Assembly: GCF_005771535.1 (NCBI RefSeq)
Contig: NZ_VANU01000004.1
Span: 124,001-188,000, forward strand
DNA from: Arcobacter arenosus
GTDB taxonomy: Bacteria > Campylobacterota > Campylobacteria > Campylobacterales > Arcobacteraceae
Length of the DNA stretch: 64,000 nucleotides
Direction: 5' to 3'
Part shown: one piece after another, positions 11,449 through 28,460 of the stretch
Position numbering within the stretch: the first letter of the stretch is position 1
How the letters are laid out: every line of letters begins with the position of its first letter
Translations under genes and position numbers: made by a program
Notes under the pieces: generated by a model
Database searches by the model: none
Told to the model about the DNA's origin: nothing
Seen by the model: the letters and a program-made list of their open reading frames with translations, nothing else

Positions 11449-12902
11449 TTTTTCTCCTTAATAAAGTGTGCTCCAAGTGATTTTTTTCTTTCAATTGCAG
11501 CATTTAGAATAGATTTTGCCGTAAGCAACCTTAAAAATAGCAGTCTACCAATATTTTCATTGAAAAAATTATTAATTTCTTCTAAGGCTTTTTTTAGTGT
11601 TTCTTCATCTCTTACTATTCCAGCATTTTCCCACATAAGTTGTCTAACTCTCTCTTTTATGGGCTTATCAGCCTCTTTATTACGAACATATGACCGTATG
11701 GTTTTATCATAATTTTCAGCATATATTTTAAAGTTTTCTTTCATTGAAATATCAACTGCAATTTTTGAATAAACTACACCTTCAAGTAAAGAATTTGATG
11801 CTAATCTGTTTGCTCCATGTAAACCAGTGCATGCACATTCACCAATTGCATATAGATTTTTCATCCCTTTAACTTTTGCATCAACATTTGTTGCAATTCC
11901 ACCCATAGCGTAGTGAAAAGCAGGAGAAATAGGAACTCTCTCAAAGGGTAAGTCATAGCCAAATTGTTTTAAATTTTCATAAATATTAGGAAATCTTTTT
12001 CTAAATGAGTTTTTTTCAAAACTATCAAAAGAGAGATAAATTCTTAATCCTGTCTTACTATGATAATCATAAATAGACCTACTTACAACATCTCTTGGTG
12101 CTAATTCACCATCAGGATGATATTCAAACAAAAATCTGTTGTTGTTTTCATCTACAATATGAGCACCCTCACCTCTTAATGCTTCACTAAGTAATGATTT
12201 TCTAGCAAAAGAGGTTCCTTTAAATACTGTTGGATGAAATTGCATCATCTCCATATCTTTTAATTCAATACCTTTTTCAGCACAAATACCTTGTATTTCA
12301 CCTGCAATAGCTGTTGAATTTGTGTGGTATTTATAAATTGAACCAATACCACCACTTGCTAAGATTGTATTATGGGCATAGACAACTTTTTGTTCAGTTT
12401 CACTGACATAATATTGAACTCCATAACAAACATCATCTTTAATTAAAAGGTCATTTACAACACAATTTGTCTCAATCTCATGTTGGCAAGTACCCATTAA
12501 GAATAGATGAATCATTCTTCCTGTTGCATCACCATCTGCATGCAAGATTCTATTTCTACTGTGAGCTGCCTCTTTTGTAAAAGCTAATTCACCTTTAGTG
12601 TTTAAGTCAAATTGCATACCTGCATTAATCATATCATCAACACAAGCCCTTGAATTTTCACTTAAAACTTCAACTGCATTTGTATTGTTATGATTAACAC
12701 CTGCAACTAAAGTATCTTTTATATGAGATGGAATATCTTCTTTATCAACTGCAGTTGCAATACCACCTTGGGCATAAAAAGTATTACATTCCCAAGGAAC
12801 TTTTTTACAAAGTACTAATACTTTTTTATCTTTTGGTATTAATCGTGCGGCATTTAATCCAGCAACACCTGAACCAACTATAACGTAATCATATATATTC
12901 AT
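11442..12902 (-). CDS. nadB: L-aspartate oxidase
   Basis: 486 residues, FAD enzyme of NAD synthesis making iminoaspartate. The N-terminal FAD-binding motif is YVIVGSGVAGLNAARL. The succinate dehydrogenase/fumarate reductase-type core includes NTFYAQGGIA, ALRGEGAHIVDE, HYAMGGIATNVDA and GLHGANRLASNSLLEG. The C-terminal helical region is somewhat short for NadB. The ATG overlaps the stop of the small upstream lipoprotein gene (TAATG). Confidence 0.93.
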   Translation of the reverse strand: MNIYDYVIVGSGVAGLNAARLIPKDKKVLVLCKKVPWECNTFYAQGGIATAVDKEDIPSHIKDTLVAGVNHNNTNAVEVLSENSRACVDDMINAGMQFDLNTKGELAFTKEAAHSRNRILHADGDATGRMIHLFLMGTCQHEIETNCVVNDLLIKDDVCYGVQYYVSETEQKVVYAHNTILASGGIGSIYKYHTNSTAIAGEIQGICAEKGIELKDMEMMQFHPTVFKGTSFARKSLLSEALRGEGAHIVDENNNRFLFEYHPDGELAPRDVVSRSIYDYHSKTGLRIYLSFDSFEKNSFRKRFPNIYENLKQFGYDLPFERVPISPAFHYAMGGIATNVDAKVKGMKNLYAIGECACTGLHGANRLASNSLLEGVVYSKIAVDISMKENFKIYAENYDKTIRSYVRNKEADKPIKERVRQLMWENAGIVRDEETLKKALEEINNFFNENIGRLLFLRLLTAKSILNAAIERKKSLGAHFIKEKKC

Positions 12903-15248: not shown

Positions 15249-16154
15249 ATGACTCCACAAAAGAAAGCTACCGTAGTTTCAAGTAGTGTTGCTGCTATAT
15301 TAACACTAATGAAACTAGTTATTGGTATAGCTAGTGGGTCTGTTGCAGTTTTAGCATCTGCAATAGACTCAGTTCTTGATATGTTTGTATCACTATTCAA
15401 CTACTTTGCTGTAAACAATTCTGAAAAACCTGCCGATGAAACTTTTAATTATGGACGAGGAAAAATTGAAGCCTTAGCTTCTGTAATTGAGGGTACAATT
15501 ATTACTATCTCCGGTTTATTTTTACTTTATCAAGCTATTGAAAAAGCGATTAATGGTGAAGTATCTCAATATCTTGGTATCTCTTTAGGTGTTATGGTTG
15601 CCTCTTTAATAATTACGGTTAGTTTAGTAATCTATTTAAATAAAATTGCAAAACAAACTAATAGTATGGTTATTAAAGCTGATGCTTTACACTATAAAAC
15701 CGATGTTTATACAAATGCAGCTGTTTTAGTATCATTATTACTTGTTAACTTCACAGGTATTGAATTAATTGATGTTATTGTTGGTGGTGGTATCTCAATA
15801 TTTATTATCTATTCTGCTTATGAATTAATTCAAGAGGGTGTTCTTGTACTTTTAGATAGAGCTGTGGATGAAGAGATAGTAAAAGATATCAAAAAAGCTT
15901 TAATGTCAGAAGAAAGAGTTAATACTTACCATATGTTAAAAACAAGGGAAGCTGGAAATCAAATCTTTGTTGATGTACATTTGGTTTATGATTGCTTAAT
16001 TACCTTAATGGAAGCCCACAAAATAACTGACAAAATAGAAAATAAAATCAGAAAATTAGATAGATCAAAAGATTGGGTTATCAATATTCATATGGACCCT
16101 TATGATGACCTTGATAGTAATGAAGATAATCATTTACTAGAAGGCGCACATTGA
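15249..16154 (+). CDS. Cation diffusion facilitator (FieF-like metal efflux)
   Basis: 301 residues: an N-terminal six-helix membrane domain with the zinc/iron-site acidic residues (SAIDSVLDMF in helix 2 and KADALHYKTDVYTNAAV in helix 5, H/D pairs), then a cytoplasmic regulatory domain with the VDVHL strand. Family members export Zn, Fe or Mn in exchange for protons; the HxxxD in helix 5 is preserved. Its stop overlaps the start of the next gene. Confidence 0.9.
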   Translation: MTPQKKATVVSSSVAAILTLMKLVIGIASGSVAVLASAIDSVLDMFVSLFNYFAVNNSEKPADETFNYGRGKIEALASVIEGTIITISGLFLLYQAIEKAINGEVSQYLGISLGVMVASLIITVSLVIYLNKIAKQTNSMVIKADALHYKTDVYTNAAVLVSLLLVNFTGIELIDVIVGGGISIFIIYSAYELIQEGVLVLLDRAVDEEIVKDIKKALMSEERVNTYHMLKTREAGNQIFVDVHLVYDCLITLMEAHKITDKIENKIRKLDRSKDWVINIHMDPYDDLDSNEDNHLLEGAH

Positions 16155-18484
16155 ATTATATAAATATACTTGGTGCAAGTGGAACAAAAACACAATCCTC
16201 AGGAACAACTTCATTTCAAATTTATAAAAATATTATAATTGATGCAGGAAATGTAATAAAACCTTTAGGGGAAGAGGTTTTAAATATAAACCATATATTT
16301 ATAACACATACCCACTCGGACCATATTATTGATTTACCTTTTATTATTGAAAGTTTTTTTGAAGAAAGAAAAGAACCATTGACAATATATGGTTCAAGTC
16401 AAACAATAGAAGCTTTAAAAAAACACACATTTAATGATCAGATATGGCCCGATTTTTCAAAAATAAAACTTATAAATTCTGAAGAATTTTCTTTAAAATA
16501 TCAAGTTATAACAGAAAATGAAACTATAAAAATTGATTCCTATAATATAACTTCTGTAAAGGCAAATCATATAGATGGAGCTTTTGGATATATTGTATTA
16601 AAAGATGATTCAGATTCATATTTTATTAGTGGTGACACATATACAAACCCTTTAATATGGGAAACAATAAATACAAATAAAAAAATAAAATCATTAATAA
16701 TAGAATGTTCTTTCCCAAATAAATTTGAAAGTTTAGCGCAAGATAGTAAACATTTAACCCCAAAACTTTTAAAAGATATAATTTCAAAAATTAATAGAAA
16801 TGATATTCAAATATTTATATATCATTTAAAACAATCCTATAAAAAACAATTAGTTGAAGAGATTGAAGATTTAAATATTTTATCAAATGGCGGGAAAATA
16901 TTAGAAGATGGTGATGTTATTCATCTAGAAACAGGAAAAACACAATCTAAAAATATAAGCCATGATAAGTTTGATAGAATAATGGAAATCAACAATCAGC
17001 TGTCATCACAAGTTGATAAAGACAAGCTATTTGAAATGATATTGTCATTAACAAGAGATTTGACCAATTGTGAAGCTGGTACTTTATATATTGTTACAAA
17101 AGATAGAAAAAGCCTAGAGTTTAAAGTTATTCAAAATGACCCTTTAAATATAAAAATAGGAGAAAAAGAAAAACCTGTTTCATGGAACTCTTTACCAATT
17201 TATTTAGATGATGGAAAAGAAAATAGACAAATGGTTTCTGTTGTATCTGCATTAGAAAAAAGAATTATTAATATTCCTGATGTATACAACTGTAAAGATT
17301 ATGATTTTGAAGGAACAAAAAAGTTTGATAATTCTTCAGGATATAGATCAAAATCAATGTTAGTAATCCCTTTAGTTAATCATGAAGAAGATGTTATTGG
17401 AGTATTACAACTAATAAATAAAACTAACTTTTCACATGATGATATTATCCCTTTTAATAAAGAAGATGAAGATATATTAAAAGCATTAGCTTCTCAAGCT
17501 GCTATGGCTTTAACAAATTCATTTTTAATAAATAGTTTAGAAGAGTTTTTAAATTCATTTGTAACAACAATTGCTCACGCAATTGACGCAAAATCAAAAC
17601 ATACAAGTAAACATATTGATAAAGTTGCAAAAATTGCTAATTTGATTGCTAAATCAATAGATAAAGATAAAACTATTTATAAAGACATTACCTATAATGA
17701 AAATGATTTAAAAGAGATAGAACTTGCAGCTTATATGCATGATGTTGGTAAAATATCTATGCCTGAATATATAATTGACAAAGCAACTAAATTAGAAGCA
17801 TTTATAGATAGAATTGATGTTATTCAACAAAGATTTGAAATAGTAAAAAGAGATTTAGAAATATCATTATTAAAAAAAGAGATTTCACAAGAATCATATA
17901 ATAATTCATTAATTCAAATCAAAGATGATATGGATTTTTTAAAAGAAGTCAATATAGGTTCTGAGTTTATGGATGAAGAAAAGATTGATAGAATTTTAGC
18001 AATCTCAAAATACTCATATATCCTTGATGGAGAAAAAATAGATTTTCTAAGTAAAAATGAGATTGAGAATTTATCAATAAGAAAAGGAACATTAACAAAC
18101 CAAGAAAAAGAGATAATGAATTCCCATGCTAATTTGTCATTTCAGATGTTATCATCATTACCTTTCCCTAAAAAATACAGTAATGTTCTTAATATTGCTG
18201 CAAACCATCATGAAAAACTAAATGGAAAAGGTTATCCAAGAGGATTAGGAGAAAAAGACTTAAGCCTTGAAGATAGAATTATGATACTTGCAGATATATT
18301 TGAAGCATTAACAGCAAGTGATAGACCATACAAAGAAGGTAAAAAACTATCAGAAGTATATAAAATCCTCTCATTTATGGTTAAAGACAATGAAATAGAT
18401 GGAAATCTTTTAGAGTTTTTCTTTCAAAGTGACGCCTTTAAAAAATATATACATGAAGAATTAAAACCATCTCAAATTGACTAG
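16151..18484 (+). CDS. Fusion of class II cAMP-phosphodiesterase-like MBL domain, GAF and HD-GYP
   Basis: 777 residues with three domains. Residues 1-260 are a metallo-beta-lactamase fold with THTHSDH (H53, H55, D57, H58), H140, D162 and late His residues H201 and H225, resembling class II cyclic-nucleotide phosphodiesterases. Residues about 280-460 form a GAF domain. Residues about 465-770 form an HD-GYP domain with MHDVGK (H530, D531) and HHEKLNGKGYPRG (686-698), separated by an insert of about 100 residues. All catalytic motifs look intact, so one chain may degrade both a 3',5'-cyclic mononucleotide and cyclic di-GMP. It overlaps the efflux gene and lies 17 bases before an adenylate cyclase. 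The start overlaps the previous stop; it begins at TTG. Confidence 0.85.
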   Translation: MNYINILGASGTKTQSSGTTSFQIYKNIIIDAGNVIKPLGEEVLNINHIFITHTHSDHIIDLPFIIESFFEERKEPLTIYGSSQTIEALKKHTFNDQIWPDFSKIKLINSEEFSLKYQVITENETIKIDSYNITSVKANHIDGAFGYIVLKDDSDSYFISGDTYTNPLIWETINTNKKIKSLIIECSFPNKFESLAQDSKHLTPKLLKDIISKINRNDIQIFIYHLKQSYKKQLVEEIEDLNILSNGGKILEDGDVIHLETGKTQSKNISHDKFDRIMEINNQLSSQVDKDKLFEMILSLTRDLTNCEAGTLYIVTKDRKSLEFKVIQNDPLNIKIGEKEKPVSWNSLPIYLDDGKENRQMVSVVSALEKRIINIPDVYNCKDYDFEGTKKFDNSSGYRSKSMLVIPLVNHEEDVIGVLQLINKTNFSHDDIIPFNKEDEDILKALASQAAMALTNSFLINSLEEFLNSFVTTIAHAIDAKSKHTSKHIDKVAKIANLIAKSIDKDKTIYKDITYNENDLKEIELAAYMHDVGKISMPEYIIDKATKLEAFIDRIDVIQQRFEIVKRDLEISLLKKEISQESYNNSLIQIKDDMDFLKEVNIGSEFMDEEKIDRILAISKYSYILDGEKIDFLSKNEIENLSIRKGTLTNQEKEIMNSHANLSFQMLSSLPFPKKYSNVLNIAANHHEKLNGKGYPRGLGEKDLSLEDRIMILADIFEALTASDRPYKEGKKLSEVYKILSFMVKDNEIDGNLLEFFFQSDAFKKYIHEELKPSQID

Positions 18485-18501: not shown

Positions 18502-20676
18502 ATGAATAAAAAAAATCTATTAAAAAAATTTATGATTTTTCTAGGTTTAGGAATTATCCTAAGCTTTATAATTTCTACAATATATATTAATTTTACTAAA
18601 CTTCCAAATTCTATAGATAATAGACTAAGAGATTATTTTTTTACCCTAAGAGGAGAAATACCCCATGAAGATAATATTGTAATCATTAATATTGATGAAG
18701 CATCTTTAAAAGAGGTAGGACAATGGCCTTGGTCTAGACCTAAAGTATCCCAATTATTAAAAAACCTTACAAATATGGATATAGGATTAATTGCTTTTGA
18801 TATGGTTTTTGCTGAACCTGATAAAAGTTCACCCCATAAAGTATTTAAAAAATATGGCATATCTAGAGAAAACACCCCTAACTATGATTTAATTTTAGGA
18901 AATACTGTTGCAAATACACCTACAATATTAGGTTATGTATTTGAATTTACAGAAAATAAATATATAGATAAAAAGGCTCCCCAAATTCCTGCAATTTTTA
19001 TTGAAAAGAATAAAAAACTAGGCGATGACTTTTTATTAAAAGCAAAAGGGGCAATATTAAATGTGCCAGAGATTCAAAACAAAGCATATACAAGTGGGTT
19101 TTTTAATAACATACCTGATGAATCAGGAGTAATAAGAAGTGTTCCACTTATAATATCTTATGAAGATATGATATACCCATCTTTATCTTTAGAAGTTATT
19201 CGTTTAATTTCAAAAACTAAAAAAGTAATTGTCAATTATGATGAAAATGGGATAGTTAATATAAAATTAAATAATTTAACAATTCCTACAGACAGATATG
19301 GAAGACTTTTAATAAATTTTAGAGGAAAATCAAAAAGCTTTAAATATTATTCCGCAAAAGATATTTTAAATGGTTCAATTCAGAAGAAAGAACTAGAAGG
19401 AAAAATTGCATTAATTGGAACTACGGCAGTTGGATTACTAGACCTTAGAGCAACACCTTTTGAATCAGTTTATCCAGGGGTAGAAGTTCATGCTAATGCT
19501 ATTGATAATATTTTGGTTGGTGATTTCTTAGCAAAAGAGTCATGGGTTGATGGTGCTAATATCTGGATTATATTTTTATTAACAATTTTAACTGTTTTAT
19601 TAATAACATATTTACCATTTTGGTTAAATCCGATTATAACTCTTTTTTTATTAGGAGGAACTGTTTTTGTTCTTTATAATCTATTATTTACTTATGGTTT
19701 AGTTTTAAATATATTTTTCCCTCTTTTTTCAATTGTTATAGCAGCCATAGTTGTTACACTGTTTGATTACTTTTATGAAATAAAAAAAGAAGAAGCCATA
19801 AAGAAAAAATTTGCTTCAAAAGTTTCAAAGTCAGTTATGGAAAACCTTTTAAAAGATATTGATAATAATGAGTTTCAAGCAGAAGAAAAAGAAGTAACAG
19901 TTTTTTTTAGTGATATTAGAAATTTTACAAATATCTCAGAACAAATGGATAATGCAAATGAACTTATTACATATCTGAATGAATATATGGAGCCAATGAG
20001 TAATATCATTACAGAATATGAAGGAACAATAGATAAATATATTGGTGATTCAATAATGGCCTATTGGAATGCTCCTGCAGAAGTATCAAATCATGCAGAT
20101 AAAGCTGTAACTGCTTCCCTTAAACAAATAAAACAACTTATCCCACTAAATAGAAAACTTAAAAGAGAAAATAAGCCTCCTATTGATATGGGTATAGGTA
20201 TTAATACAGGAAAAGCAATTGTAGGGGAAATGGGTAGTAAAGGTAGAAGTGATTATACAGTAATTGGAGATGCTATTAATCTTGGAGCAAGATTAGAATC
20301 ACTATGTATATTTTATGATTCTAAACTTAATATTTCAAATTTTACAAAAGAGCAACTAAAAAACGATTATACTTTTAGATTTCTTGACTTAGTAAAAGTT
20401 AAAGGGAAGAAAAAGCCTGTAGAGATATGGCAAGTAATTGATTTGGGAGAACCAGAAGAAGAACTAAAAAAAGAGTTAGAACTTTATCATGAAGCAATTA
20501 ATCTTTACAGAAACTCAAACTTTAAAGAAGCATTAGAGATTTTTGAAAATTTAGAAAACTATGATAAAAAAACGAATAAAAAAATATATCAAATTTATAT
20601 TAATAGATGCAAAGAATTTATACTTTCACCACCAACTAACTTTAATGGTATATACGAACATCATTCGAAAATCTAA
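18502..20676 (+). CDS. CHASE2-domain adenylate cyclase
   Basis: 724 residues. One N-terminal helix (10-30) anchors an extracytoplasmic CHASE2 sensor (about 35-345), followed by three membrane helices (about 350-425) and a class III cyclase domain (about 460-650). Metal ligands are D471 (FFSDIRNFT) and D516 (YIGD). K512 and T586 (SDYTVIGDAINLGARLE) specify adenine. The product is therefore cAMP. It probably balances the phosphodiesterase encoded just upstream. A short TPR-like tail follows the catalytic domain. Confidence 0.93.
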   Translation: MNKKNLLKKFMIFLGLGIILSFIISTIYINFTKLPNSIDNRLRDYFFTLRGEIPHEDNIVIINIDEASLKEVGQWPWSRPKVSQLLKNLTNMDIGLIAFDMVFAEPDKSSPHKVFKKYGISRENTPNYDLILGNTVANTPTILGYVFEFTENKYIDKKAPQIPAIFIEKNKKLGDDFLLKAKGAILNVPEIQNKAYTSGFFNNIPDESGVIRSVPLIISYEDMIYPSLSLEVIRLISKTKKVIVNYDENGIVNIKLNNLTIPTDRYGRLLINFRGKSKSFKYYSAKDILNGSIQKKELEGKIALIGTTAVGLLDLRATPFESVYPGVEVHANAIDNILVGDFLAKESWVDGANIWIIFLLTILTVLLITYLPFWLNPIITLFLLGGTVFVLYNLLFTYGLVLNIFFPLFSIVIAAIVVTLFDYFYEIKKEEAIKKKFASKVSKSVMENLLKDIDNNEFQAEEKEVTVFFSDIRNFTNISEQMDNANELITYLNEYMEPMSNIITEYEGTIDKYIGDSIMAYWNAPAEVSNHADKAVTASLKQIKQLIPLNRKLKRENKPPIDMGIGINTGKAIVGEMGSKGRSDYTVIGDAINLGARLESLCIFYDSKLNISNFTKEQLKNDYTFRFLDLVKVKGKKKPVEIWQVIDLGEPEEELKKELELYHEAINLYRNSNFKEALEIFENLENYDKKTNKKIYQIYINRCKEFILSPPTNFNGIYEHHSKI

Positions 20677-20740: not shown

Positions 20741-22315
20741 ATGAAAGAAAAACTTTTATTATTTTTTTTATTAACAACTTTAGTTTATGCAGAAAATTAT
20801 ACCCTGTATCTTACTTCAACAAATTCTTTACAATCAGCAAAAGAACATTATGAGAATATTAAATTTCATATTCCTGATTCTTTTGAAACAATAATTCATC
20901 AAAGAGACGATAAAAGTTATACCCTATTAATAAGAGATATAGAAACTTTAGAAAAAGCAAAAAGAATTCAAAAACTTCTTTATTTAACAAATAATTATCA
21001 AAACAGCTATATAAAAGTTTTTGATAAAAAACCTAACTATAATGTAATTCAAGTAAAAAATGAAAAAATAAAAAATGAAGAACCATATAAGCAAAATCTT
21101 GAACAATCTAATAAATATATTACAGCAGTAACTATGTACAATACAGAGCAATTTGTAAAATCTTATGAACTTTTTAATAAGCTTTTTTTGGAAAATAATT
21201 ACAATCTAAATGTAAACTATTTTTTAGCAAAAAGTGCTTTCAAAATAAAAAAGTATAATGAAGCTATGGCTGCATACGAAAGGGTTTTAATAATAAACCC
21301 TGATTTCAATCAAGCAAGATATGACTATGCTAGAATATTATATAAATTAAAACAAAAAAAAGAAGCTAAAATTGAATTTAATAAACTTCTTTCTTCTAAT
21401 ATAAACCCCGAGATTAAAACCCAAATAACAGAGTACTTAAAAATTTTAAATAATAAAATGAGAGGTAGTGCAAATATTATAGTAGGTTTAAGTAGAAGTA
21501 CAAATATAAATAATGGTCTTTTATCTCCTGAATATAGACTACCTGGACTAAATGATATATTAGTTAAAGGTGAGGATCCAATTTCAGATAGTGCACATAG
21601 TGAAATGTTAGATTTAAACTTTTATAATTATTTTAAAGATGATACCTTTAGATTAAAAAACTCATTTTTAGTTTATAACAAAAACTACTTTAATGAAACA
21701 GATGAAAATATAACTTTACTATCTTATAAACCCACTTTATCTTATTTAGACAAAGATTATCTATATGCATTAGGTTTTGGTATAGAAAGGATAATTAAAT
21801 CAGGGGAAGATTTTAATTCTTATTTTATTAGCCCTCAAATTACAAATAAAGACTTCTTTATAAATTTAAAATACCAAAAAGTGCAATATATTAGTGATGT
21901 AAACAAAGAAAAAGACTTTCATAAAATTCAATTATTTGGAAAAATTAATTTATTTAAAAATATGAATTATTATACAAATCTATATAAAAATATAAGAGAT
22001 AAAAATATAAGAACTGATATAGATAAATATACAATTGGAAATGGTTTAAATCTTTTTTATAATATTAATAAAAATAATAAAATTAATCTAAAATATCAAC
22101 TCAATTATAGTAAGTATAAATATGAAAATAATTTCTTTGAATCTAAAAGAGAAGATAAACAACACTTAGTTGAGTTATCTTTAAGTCATGCATTAAATAA
22201 AGATAATTTTATAAATATAAGTACTTCATATTTAAAAAATAACTCAAACCAAGATGCCTATGTTTATGATGAAAAGGCAATTAAGTTAAATTATCTTAAA
22301 GCTATACAGTGGTAA
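20741..22315 (+). CDS. Exported TPR protein with C-terminal beta-barrel-like region
   Basis: 524 residues. A signal peptide (MKEKLLLFFLLTTLVYA) precedes a SPOR-like segment (about 20-85), TPR repeats (about 125-235, including NYFLAKSAFKIKKYNEAMAA), and a C-terminal half rich in alternating hydrophobic/aromatic strands, like the DUF560/Slam-type outer-membrane barrels. It sits 24 bases before a FecR gene and 64 after the cyclase. I infer an outer-membrane or periplasmic assembly role in the same pathway. Confidence 0.6.
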   Translation: MKEKLLLFFLLTTLVYAENYTLYLTSTNSLQSAKEHYENIKFHIPDSFETIIHQRDDKSYTLLIRDIETLEKAKRIQKLLYLTNNYQNSYIKVFDKKPNYNVIQVKNEKIKNEEPYKQNLEQSNKYITAVTMYNTEQFVKSYELFNKLFLENNYNLNVNYFLAKSAFKIKKYNEAMAAYERVLIINPDFNQARYDYARILYKLKQKKEAKIEFNKLLSSNINPEIKTQITEYLKILNNKMRGSANIIVGLSRSTNINNGLLSPEYRLPGLNDILVKGEDPISDSAHSEMLDLNFYNYFKDDTFRLKNSFLVYNKNYFNETDENITLLSYKPTLSYLDKDYLYALGFGIERIIKSGEDFNSYFISPQITNKDFFINLKYQKVQYISDVNKEKDFHKIQLFGKINLFKNMNYYTNLYKNIRDKNIRTDIDKYTIGNGLNLFYNINKNNKINLKYQLNYSKYKYENNFFESKREDKQHLVELSLSHALNKDNFINISTSYLKNNSNQDAYVYDEKAIKLNYLKAIQW

Positions 22316-22339: not shown

Positions 22340-23572
22340 ATGAATACTTTTTCTATTAAAATAATTTTTTTAACCCTATTGCTCTTTTCAACATCTGTAT
22401 TTGCAAATGTTGCAAAAGTTGTTGCTCTTGTAGGTGATGCTACAATAACTCGAGAGGGAAAAACAATTGATCTTACAAAAGAATCTATACTTTTAAAACA
22501 TGATGAAATAAAGACATCAAACAATACAAAAGTACAATTATTATTTAAAGATAATACAATTATCTCTATTGGGAACAACTCAACATTTCAAATATATAAT
22601 TATCTATATGATGAAGAAAACAATAAATTTGAAGCAAAATTTAATATGTTTAAAGGGACATTTAAAACAATCACTGGAAAGATTGGGAAAAAAGCTCCTG
22701 AAAATTTTCTTCTGAAAACAAAAACTGCTTCTATTGGAATTAGAGGTACACAAATAGTAATAAGTATAGAGGATAATCAAGAAAAGATTTTTTGTACAGA
22801 AGGTAGAATATTTGTTCAAAAAAACAATTCAAACTTAAGTACATCTATAAATGCTGGAGAATTTATTTCAGTTAACCAAAATACAAATAAACTTGAAGTA
22901 AAAACTATAAAACCAAGTGATATTAAAAATATAAATAAAAGTATATCAATTAAAAGTAATCTGGCTGTAGATAATATTACAATAAAAGAAGATAGGCCTG
23001 AAAAAGCAGAAAAAGCAGAAAAAGCAGAAAAAGCAGAAAAAGCAGAATCAACAAAATCAACAAAATCAACAAAATCAACAAAATCAACAGAATCAGCAGA
23101 ATCAGCAGAATCAGCCATTGAGAATACTATAGATGATGACTTATCTGAACTAACTCCCGAATCATATTTTGAAAACAATAATTCAACTGCAACATACAAA
23201 GGGGATTTTAATAATTATGGTTTTAATAACGGACAGCAATATCTAAAAAATGTTAATAATAAAAAAGTTGAAATTCCTGATGATACAACTATTCAGATGG
23301 ATATTGATTTTGGAAAAACTAATAATCAAATATCAAATGGTGAAATTAAAATTAATGATGTAGGAGACAGTACTTCTAGAACATTAACCTTTGATGGTGA
23401 CATTAATACTTCAAAATCAACTTTTGATTTATCACCAACAGGAACTACAAAAGGAAGTGGAGGCTCTGGTAAAATCTATGGAAGTGAAGCAGACTTAATT
23501 AAAGGTGAAGTTAATATGAGTTCATCTGATAATATCCAAATCAAAGGTAACTTCGACGCCGAAAAACAGTAA
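22340..23572 (+). CDS. Exported FecR-domain protein with tandem repeats
   Basis: 410 residues. Signal peptide (MNTFSIKIIFLTLLLFSTSVFA), then a FecR domain to about residue 140 with the family hallmark TASIGIRGT. A low-complexity stretch (about 221-259) is built of KAE, then STK, then ESA triplets. The C-terminal domain (about 275-410) is Asn/Gly/Ser-rich with predicted beta strands. FecR domains elsewhere sense or scaffold in the periplasm; here the partner is probably the CHASE2 cyclase. A paralogue lies at 27446. Confidence 0.75.
   Translation: MNTFSIKIIFLTLLLFSTSVFANVAKVVALVGDATITREGKTIDLTKESILLKHDEIKTSNNTKVQLLFKDNTIISIGNNSTFQIYNYLYDEENNKFEAKFNMFKGTFKTITGKIGKKAPENFLLKTKTASIGIRGTQIVISIEDNQEKIFCTEGRIFVQKNNSNLSTSINAGEFISVNQNTNKLEVKTIKPSDIKNINKSISIKSNLAVDNITIKEDRPEKAEKAEKAEKAEKAESTKSTKSTKSTKSTESAESAESAIENTIDDDLSELTPESYFENNNSTATYKGDFNNYGFNNGQQYLKNVNNKKVEIPDDTTIQMDIDFGKTNNQISNGEIKINDVGDSTSRTLTFDGDINTSKSTFDLSPTGTTKGSGGSGKIYGSEADLIKGEVNMSSSDNIQIKGNFDAEKQ
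23000..23116 (+). repeat. 9-base tandem repeat inside the FecR gene
   Basis: Thirteen in-frame units: five of GAAAAAGCA, then GAATCAACA/AAATCAACA forms, then GAATCAGCA forms, ending GAATCAGCC. Gain or loss of units keeps the frame and changes linker length by three residues each. Not a CRISPR because there are no spacers. Confidence 0.9.
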
Positions 23573-26176: not shown

Positions 26177-27436
26177 ATGGATACTAATAAAGTAAATGAG
26201 ATTGTAAAAGAGACTATAATAAGTCTTCATAAAAAGAATATTCCAGCAACACCAAATGAATATCATAAAGAGTTTTGTAAAATCTCTCATGTATATAATT
26301 TTACGGTTGAAGAGTGTGAACAATTTAAAAAACTTGTTAAAAAATTAAGCAAAAATGAACAATTAGAGATAGAATCAAAAAATATTACTACTATTGAAGA
26401 TATGATTCCAATATTATTAAATAGAGTCTCTAAAGAAAATATTAACAACCTTGCACTTCTTTTTAACAACTCTTTAAAGCCCTCAATTAGTATTGATGTA
26501 GACAAAGATTTAGAAAGATTCACTATAAAAATTGGTGATTCACCTGCACTTATATTTGAAGATGATATTCAAAAAGAGATGCAAGACTTTATTACAAAGA
26601 GATTTGAAGCTGATAAAAATATTGTTAAACAAAAAACCTCAGAAATTGCAAAACTTTTAACTTTGATGGGACAATATTTTAGTGATGCTATTCATAGTAG
26701 TGATAAAGGCTCAAATGAAGTATCAAATATCAAATCAAAAATTGAATCAATTGATATGAAAGATGGGATGAAAAGTCTTAGTGATTTACAAAATCAATTA
26801 ATTGATGCAGCTAAATCTATTGAAAATGAGATGTCAAATGTTGGAGAAAAATTAAACTCAGGTAAATCAAAAGTTGAAACTTTAGAACAAAAAGTAAAAA
26901 AACTAGAACAAGAATTAGAAAAAACAAAAAAAGAGAGTTTAATAGACCATTTGACAGGAGTTTTAAGTAGAGGTGCCTACGAAAATTCTGTTAAAAAGAT
27001 AGAAAATACATTTATGAGAAACAATACCCAATATGCTATTGTTTTCTTTGATTTAGATCACTTTAAAAAAGTTAATGACACATATGGACATGATGCTGGA
27101 GATATAATTTTATCTACCTTTGCAAAAGTTTTGAGTAAAAACACTAGAGAACTTGATATTGTAGGAAGATATGGTGGAGAAGAGTTTGTTGCTATTATCC
27201 ATTTTAATCTAAAAAGAGAACTTTTAAAGTATCTAAAAAGAATCAAATCAATCATAAAAGACAATGATTTTATATATAAAAATCAAAAAATACATTTAAC
27301 TTTTTCTGCTGGTGTTGCAATTAGAAATAATCATAATAGCTATGACAGTACTATTCAAAAAGCTGATATGTTATTGTATGAAGCAAAAGAAACAGGTAGA
27401 GATAAGATTATACTGGAGGATGGTACTATAATTTAA
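26177..27436 (+). CDS. Diguanylate cyclase (GGDEF protein) with coiled-coil sensor region
   Basis: 419 residues, no membrane segment. An N-terminal helical domain of the kind seen in other Campylobacterota GGDEF proteins runs to about 170, then a coiled coil (about 215-255), then the GGDEF domain. The active site is GGEEF (333-337) and the inhibitory I-site RELD (324-327) lies five residues before it, so it is probably an active, product-inhibited cyclase making c-di-GMP. The FecR paralogue starts nine bases after its stop. Confidence 0.92.
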   Translation: MDTNKVNEIVKETIISLHKKNIPATPNEYHKEFCKISHVYNFTVEECEQFKKLVKKLSKNEQLEIESKNITTIEDMIPILLNRVSKENINNLALLFNNSLKPSISIDVDKDLERFTIKIGDSPALIFEDDIQKEMQDFITKRFEADKNIVKQKTSEIAKLLTLMGQYFSDAIHSSDKGSNEVSNIKSKIESIDMKDGMKSLSDLQNQLIDAAKSIENEMSNVGEKLNSGKSKVETLEQKVKKLEQELEKTKKESLIDHLTGVLSRGAYENSVKKIENTFMRNNTQYAIVFFDLDHFKKVNDTYGHDAGDIILSTFAKVLSKNTRELDIVGRYGGEEFVAIIHFNLKRELLKYLKRIKSIIKDNDFIYKNQKIHLTFSAGVAIRNNHNSYDSTIQKADMLLYEAKETGRDKIILEDGTII

Positions 27437-27445
27437 GGAGTCCAT

Positions 27446-27874
27446 ATGAAAGCCTTATTAATGTTATTGGTTGTTGGTTTTTTTTCTATCTCATTAGCTA
27501 TTGAAAATTCAGGTTTTATAAAAAAACTGACAGGTGAGGCGATTATAAAAAGAGATAACAAAATTATTATAGTAAAAACTGGCGTTAAAATATATCCAAA
27601 AGATATAATTATTACAAAAAACAACAGCTCTGTTGGGATTATATTTAAAGATAATACTCTAATCTCTCTTGGGAAAAATACTGAATTTATTATTGAAGAA
27701 TATACATTTAATCCAGAAGAAAAACAGGAAGCTTTTATATCAAGAATTACAAAAGGAACACTATCCTGTTTAACAGGATTAATGCCAAAATTAAATCCTG
27801 ATGCTATGAAAATAAAAGCAAAAACAGCTTCTATAGGTATTAGAGGTACACATTTTTTAATTAGCGTAGACTAA
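27446..27874 (+). CDS. Minimal exported FecR-domain protein
   Basis: 142 residues: signal peptide (about 1-18) and a single FecR domain ending soon after TASIGIRGTHFLISVD. It is a paralogue of the protein at 22340 (shared FKDNT, GT..TG and TASIGIRGT blocks) but lacks the repeats and the C-terminal domain. It lies between a diguanylate cyclase and an OmpA-type lipoprotein with spacers of about ten bases, so it is a member of one operon. Confidence 0.8.
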   Translation: MKALLMLLVVGFFSISLAIENSGFIKKLTGEAIIKRDNKIIIVKTGVKIYPKDIIITKNNSSVGIIFKDNTLISLGKNTEFIIEEYTFNPEEKQEAFISRITKGTLSCLTGLMPKLNPDAMKIKAKTASIGIRGTHFLISVD

Positions 27875-27884
27875 AAGGGTATTT

Positions 27885-28460
27885 ATGAAAATTTTTATTA
27901 CTATTGTTTTATCATTATTCTTTTTTACAGCCTGTTCAAAAGTAAACGTTGTACTACTTCCAGAAGATGGAGATAAAGTAGGGAAAATAGAGATTCAAAA
28001 TGAAGATAAAAAATTTGTTATAGATAAACCATTTGAGCAAGTAAATGCTATTGATGGAGACTCATCAATTCTAACACATGAAGAGGTTCAAGAAAAGTTT
28101 AAAGACTCAATTGCAGCACTTCCTAAAAAACCAAAAAGTTATCTAATATATTTTGAATGGGATTCAACAAAAGTTGTTCCAAAATCAAAAAAAGAAATTA
28201 AGAAAATAATTGAAAATATAAAAAAAGAAAATATAAACTATATACATATTATTGGTCATACTGATAGAGCAGGAGATAACCAATACAATAAAAGATTATC
28301 CCTAAAAAGAGCAAACTATATTAAAAAGATTCTTATCAAAAATAAAATACCTAATGAGTTAATTGAAGTGGACTATTATGGAGAATCTGCACCTTTAGTC
28401 AAAACACGAGATGAAGTACCAAAAAAAATAAATAGAAGAGTAGAGGTAACTATAAAATAA
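27885..28460 (+). CDS. OmpA-family lipoprotein
   Basis: 191 residues. The lipobox is FFFTAC (Cys17), then a short N-terminal region, then a C-terminal OmpA domain from about residue 85 with YFEWDSTKV, IIGHTDRAGDNQYNKRLS and NRRVEVTI. OmpA domains bind peptidoglycan non-covalently, so it is probably an outer-membrane anchor. Last gene of the yqeY/GGDEF/FecR run; convergent with the next gene, two bases away. Confidence 0.88.
   Translation: MKIFITIVLSLFFFTACSKVNVVLLPEDGDKVGKIEIQNEDKKFVIDKPFEQVNAIDGDSSILTHEEVQEKFKDSIAALPKKPKSYLIYFEWDSTKVVPKSKKEIKKIIENIKKENINYIHIIGHTDRAGDNQYNKRLSLKRANYIKKILIKNKIPNELIEVDYYGESAPLVKTRDEVPKKINRRVEVTIK

Follow-up and report, generated by a model that had tools for sequence, protein, structure and literature searches.

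A candidate dual cAMP and c-di-GMP phosphodiesterase combining MBL, GAF and HD-GYP domains in Arcobacter arenosus

Gene, domain layout and proposed role

A single gene of Arcobacter arenosus encodes a 777-residue protein in which an N-terminal MBL domain, a GAF domain and a C-terminal HD-GYP domain are joined in one chain, and which is probably a dual cAMP/c-di-GMP phosphodiesterase that couples both pools. The assignment was derived from sequence; the domains, the active-site residues, the type of the neighboring cyclase, the gene linkage and the co-occurrence pattern are the basis on which we infer what the two enzymes cleave, what GAF binds and that the two pools are coupled. In the proposed mechanism, the cAMP produced by the neighboring membrane-bound CHASE2 cyclase would be hydrolysed by the MBL domain; the FecR and TPR proteins encoded in the same cluster probably tune this cyclase. 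The HD-GYP domain would hydrolyse c-di-GMP, with pGpG the probable product of a single step, and the GAF domain with the long helix that follows it probably binds a small ligand, perhaps cAMP, and regulates one or both of the enzymes. Levels of cAMP and c-di-GMP would thereby be tied together by a single chain. In bacteria, cAMP and c-di-GMP affect each other mostly via transcription; a chain joining both breakdown enzymes beside a cyclase would connect the two messengers directly. In Campylobacterota, the protein is also a candidate for a dedicated cAMP phosphodiesterase.

The window is the whole stretch of DNA that was analysed, 64,000 nucleotides of contig NZ_VANU01000004.1 (positions 124,001 to 188,000). 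The features discussed below are as follows, in window coordinates.

15249..16154, + strand, CDF cation efflux gene, overlapping the next gene by 4 nt
16151..18484, + strand, MBL-GAF-HD-GYP protein, 777 residues
16151..16936, + strand, class-II-phosphodiesterase-like MBL domain, residues 1–262
16307..16324, + strand, HxHxDH metal motif (His53, His55, Asp57, His58)
16430..16456, + strand, FNDQIWPDF stretch, residues 94–102
17021..17512, + strand, GAF domain, residues 291–454
17417..17470, + strand, NKFDE-type motif of the GAF domain
17459..17593, + strand, long helix from GAF to HD, residues 437–481
17558..18481, + strand, HD-GYP domain, residues 470–777
17795..18058, + strand, helical insert after the HD motif, approximately residues 549–636
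18206..18238, + strand, HHEKLNGKGYP, residues 686–696
18502..20676, + strand, CHASE2 and class III adenylate cyclase
20741..22315, + strand, TPR protein with a β-rich, outer-membrane-like C-terminal half
22340..23572, + strand, FecR-domain protein

The exact borders of the MBL-GAF-HD-GYP gene were confirmed from the open reading frame, the Pfam matches and the homologue alignment. Its TTG start lies inside the sequence ATTGA, where the gene overlaps the stop of the upstream CDF gene by 4 nt. The start is preceded, 6 nt upstream, by the Shine–Dalgarno-like stretch AGAAGG, and the start residue is the same in orthologues. In a Pfam search, all reported domains of the protein scored above the curated cut-offs: PDEase_II (PF02112, residues 31–225, 1.5e-16), Lactamase_B_2 (residues 28–205, 1.3e-10), GAF (PF01590, residues 291–454, 3.4e-13) and HD_5 (PF13487, HD-GYP, 5.7e-34). 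A chance origin of these matches is excluded, given the domain-level E-values and the conservation across several Campylobacterota families. The initial annotation of this DNA had proposed intact MBL, GAF and HD-GYP domains on one chain, with HxHxDH and HHExxNGxGYP motifs, and this is borne out by the Pfam matches and by the presence of all metal ligands of both enzymes; the motifs are located at residues 52–58 (THTHSDH), 530–531 (HD) and 686–696 (HHEKLNGKGYP). That annotation lacked the insert of about 90 residues within the HD domain and the NKFDE-type motif of GAF. The full-length structure model has a pTM of 0.50 and was read for its secondary structure. In one genome (G229, locus L170), the gene is split within the GAF domain into two overlapping frames of 402 and 380 residues, by a frameshift or a fission.

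Relationship of the MBL domain to class-II phosphodiesterases and RNase Z

The MBL domain matches PF02112 with 60.9 bits over residues 31–225, compared with a cut-off of 23.7, and is modeled with a pLDDT of 94.6. The metal ligands, which comprise His140, Asp162 and His225 in addition to the four residues of the HxHxDH motif, are kept in 50 of 53 aligned MBL rows. A profile built from 22 MBL domains and run against the PDB returned yeast PDE1 first (4e-14) and RNase Z next (5e-10). The PDE1 alignment continues through TIDVLQKHVFNDLIWPD and HLSP, the counterparts of which in the 777-residue protein are TIEALKKHTFNDQIWPD and HLTP. The stretch FNDQIWPDF is common to yeast PDE1 (FNDLIWPD) and is missing from the RNase Z alignment, which is interrupted at the FNDxIWPD and HL[TS]P stretches. 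Foldseek also ranks yeast PDE1 first for the MBL model. The VIA-align fold comparison is a tie between PDE1 (Z of 27.5) and RNase Z (Z of 27.6–27.8), and fold similarity was therefore not used as proof of one over the other.

A placement nearer RNase Z had been raised at the outset as the alternative to a phosphodiesterase, and was checked against the profile ranking, the shared stretches and the RNase Z arm. It is very improbable that the domain is an RNase Z-type MBL with a role in tRNA 3' processing, even though RNase_Z is the top-scoring NCBIfam model for it (61 bits) and the A. arenosus genome contains no other RNase Z above the cut-off, its best match being this same domain. The NCBIfam match reaches 61.2 bits against an equivalog cut-off of 292.95 and covers residues 41–154 only. 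About 40 residues of Bacillus subtilis RNase Z, which lie between the two aligned blocks and in which we take the flexible tRNA-binding arm to be located, have no counterpart in the MBL domain. Furthermore, MBL is found in just 29 of 200 Campylobacterota genomes, where it tracks class III cyclase. The RNase Z identity was rejected on the score, the missing arm and the distribution. With PDE1 ranked first by profile and by Foldseek and RNase_Z below its cut-off, the domain is placed with the class-II cyclic-nucleotide phosphodiesterases, a position nearer to these than to RNase Z that is supported by the profile, the shared stretches, the missing arm, Foldseek and the NCBIfam score.

Yeast PDE1 and other class-II phosphodiesterases (PF02112, including Aliivibrio fischeri CpdP) have the same MBL fold, HxHxDH motif and FNDxIWPD and HL[TS]P stretches; the present domain differs from PDE1 in being about 100 residues shorter and in its fusion to GAF and HD-GYP. 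The strict class-II signature is HxHLDH, as quoted in PMC9293780. The 777-residue protein has HTHSDH, with Ser in place of Leu before Asp57, and we therefore term the domain class-II-like rather than a strict member. HxHLDH is present in most relatives of the domain, so that the HTHSDH copy is a variant within the family. The atypical class-II phosphodiesterases Rv1339 and YhfI, and Apyc1, have the superfamily, the fold and cyclic mononucleotide hydrolysis in common with this group, but are of the PF12706 type, which the present domain matches more weakly (41.6 bits) than PF02112. At L066, an intact MBL is accompanied by a tandem second copy (11940-12713) that has HxHxEH for HxHxDH and may be degenerate or play a regulatory part, and stand-alone MBL relatives in gammaproteobacterial MAGs (L079 and L085) adjoin ffh (SRP54).

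GAF domain, linking helix and HD-GYP domain

The GAF domain has phmmer matches to the GAF domains of PDE5, PDE2 and CyaB1; its best sequence relatives in the PDB outside PmGH are those of PDE5 and PDE2 and the cyclase GAF structure 1ykd. It contains the NKFDE-type motif of cyclic-nucleotide-binding GAF domains (Asn423, Lys424, Phe435, Asp439 and Glu440). Among the homologues, Asn423 and Asp439 are invariant, Lys424 and Phe435 are nearly so and Glu440 is variable. The helix that leads from GAF to HD (residues 437–481 in the secondary structure of the model) is signalling-helix-like.

The metal set H...HD...H...HH...D of the HD-GYP domain is complete (His488, His530, Asp531, His659, His686, His687 and Asp715), and these residues, together with Lys534, Arg725 and Lys728, are invariant in 15 full-length homologues; the GYP motif is likewise present. 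The insert of about 90 residues separates the HD motif from the remainder of the domain and is recognized from the split Pfam match, the alignment with PmGH and the helices at residues 555–602 of the model. The best match is PmGH of Persephonella marina (a c-di-GMP phosphodiesterase; PDB entry 4mcw), which has the GAF domain, linking helix and HD-GYP domain in the same order and the same metal ligands except one. PmGH has no MBL domain and no such insert, and its Glu185, which serves a third iron, is replaced here by His484, so that the site departs from the trinuclear PmGH type. In the view of the review PMC8177086, a dinuclear HD-GYP goes no further than one hydrolysis step; from His484 in place of Glu185, a dinuclear site that performs one-step hydrolysis is therefore predicted.

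Gene cluster, distribution and alternative roles

The initial annotation placed an adenylate cyclase next to the gene, and the adjacent frame at 18502–20676 indeed encodes CHASE2 (PF05226, 5.2e-60) and a class III cyclase (PF00211, 8.3e-24) with the metal residues Asp471 and Asp516, the adenine-type pair Lys512/Asp590, and Asn593 and Arg597. The same cAMP-type set (D-K-D-D-N-R) is found in 27 of 27 inspected cyclase sequences. The TPR protein (TPR families) and the FecR-domain protein (PF04773, 1.3e-14) that follow are also neighbors in homologous loci. According to the main text of a 2022 report (PMC9239204), every adenylate cyclase that it found in Campylobacterota carries CHASE2, and genes for a cAMP-hydrolysing phosphodiesterase, FecR and TPR proteins are clustered with most of them. 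These are the same four genes, with the phosphodiesterase called able to hydrolyse cAMP; the main-text passages considered do not describe an HD-GYP domain on it and do not treat fusion variants.

Among 200 Campylobacterota genomes, representing the phylum of the source genome, MBL was found in 29 and class III cyclase (E < 1e-6) in 26; 25 genomes have both, four have MBL alone and one has the cyclase alone (Fisher, 1e-26). Shared ancestry in these counts was addressed at the genus and family levels only: the cyclase is present in 17 of 19 genera with MBL and in none of 29 without it (4e-11), and in 101 genomes of the family Arcobacteraceae MBL occurs in 64, the cyclase in 57 and both in 54, the cyclase being present in three of the 37 genomes without MBL. 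By eye, MBL and a CHASE2 cyclase are at most about four genes apart in 17 of the 25 genomes with both, in both orders and orientations. The MBL-GAF-HD-GYP protein itself is common, with 56 of the 101 Arcobacteraceae genomes encoding it, and its four-gene cAMP cluster is already known, as the main text of PMC9239204 records; the arrangement is therefore not unusual in the sense of rare, as had been suggested.

MBL and HD-GYP are repeatedly paired. In the 200-genome sample, 28 MBLs are intact, and 22 of these share a chain with HD-GYP or lie next to it: 15 are N-terminal in a chain of the same type, one is N-terminal to another HD-GYP lineage, two are C-terminal on a GAF-HD-GYP chain and four lie beside a GAF-HD-GYP gene; the other six are alone. 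The tree of HD-GYP domains contains two lineages (100/99 support), both paired with the same MBL family, and the Glu185-equivalent glutamate is present in the second. One genome (G207) has MBL, cyclase and GAF-HD-GYP as separate consecutive genes. Outside the phylum, a CHASE2 cyclase adjoins MBL in a Troglogloeales (L080) and a Piscinibacter (L088) genome, and GAF-HD-GYP adjoins MBL in a Nitrospirae genome (L083). In Halanaerobium saccharolyticum, an MBL of another subfamily, a GAF-HD-GYP, a CHASE2 cyclase and a FecR protein are encoded by four consecutive genes, a set analogous to the Campylobacterota pairing. The GYP loop is degraded in G122 and G044, where MBL is intact and cyclases are present, and c-di-GMP activity is thus not general among the homologues; the homologues at L049 and L052 combine an intact MBL with a degraded loop (HHKMVKGGGYSAPE; HHK...GGYGAEG). 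Conversely, G169 has lost the middle part of MBL and retains an intact HD-GYP, with no class III cyclase found, which we count in favor of the dual-phosphodiesterase account. Stand-alone MBLs without class III cyclase, which count against it, occur in G208, G233, G243, G129, G133 and G176.

The main evidence against a simple role in removing the cAMP of the neighboring cyclase comes from four Arcobacteraceae genomes (G213, G282, G283 and G211) that encode the intact fused protein and in which a search for class III and class I cyclases found none. A class I or CYTH cyclase as a hidden source of cAMP in these genomes was considered and set aside, as only a CYTH protein was found, in G282 and G283. 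These cyclase-less genomes leave room for the strongest rival, namely a sequential degrader in which HD-GYP opens c-di-GMP to pGpG and MBL cuts pGpG to GMP, cAMP not being the main substrate. This would account for the repeated MBL/HD-GYP pairing and for retention without a recognized cyclase, and it accords with an insert-type HD-GYP that has His484 in place of the third-metal glutamate and would stop after one step. We nevertheless consider it unlikely, since MBL tracks class III cyclase far beyond chance, since an HD-GYP of the second lineage, which contains the glutamate, would be expected to manage without a pGpG helper, since the PDE1-specific stretches are conserved in MBL, and since MBL lies beside a CHASE2 cyclase with no HD-GYP gene adjacent in three cases (G060, L080 and L088). 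The co-occurrence and the cyclase-linked MBLs of this last kind favor the dual-phosphodiesterase account over pGpG cleavage. It is also doubtful that one domain is an enzyme and the other a sensor, with MBL cleaving cAMP while HD-GYP merely binds c-di-GMP, or the reverse, under allosteric control. Either site can be lost without the other, as G122, G044 and G169 illustrate, but every metal ligand of both is invariant in the 777-residue protein and most homologues.

Beyond the dual activity, we tentatively suggest that such single-chain hubs form a family that arose more than once in evolution, with differing domain orders. In these hubs, the cAMP and c-di-GMP phosphodiesterases might regulate one another via a GAF domain that binds cyclic nucleotides, and one protein might write an extracytoplasmic signal, read by CHASE2/FecR, into both pools. 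No description of the MBL and HD-GYP combination was found in the open-licence literature, and the repeated physical pairing (by N- and C-terminal fusion and as adjacent genes, with two HD-GYP lineages) seems to be undescribed. By eye, a pocket with R-S/T-A as in E. coli CRP was not obvious in the seven cNMP-binding-domain proteins of the A. arenosus genome, so that none of these was identified as a cAMP receptor. An anti-phage reading was rejected because PADLOC gave solely Cas3-HD and PycC superfamily cross-matches.

Several further observations concern the neighborhood. The CDF gene (PF01545, 1.1e-44) is kept beside the MBL-GAF-HD-GYP gene in several Arcobacteraceae even without the cyclase (L161–L163, L166 and L170), and the opposite flank at L161 carries a ZIP zinc transporter; a metal-supply link between these neighbors and the protein is possible. 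Inside the FecR-protein gene (23000–23115), nine-base tandem repeats code for runs of KAE, STK and SAE triplets and could vary in copy number. Close downstream (26177–28460), a second cluster encodes a GGDEF protein, a short FecR-only protein (27446–27874) and an OmpA-like lipoprotein.
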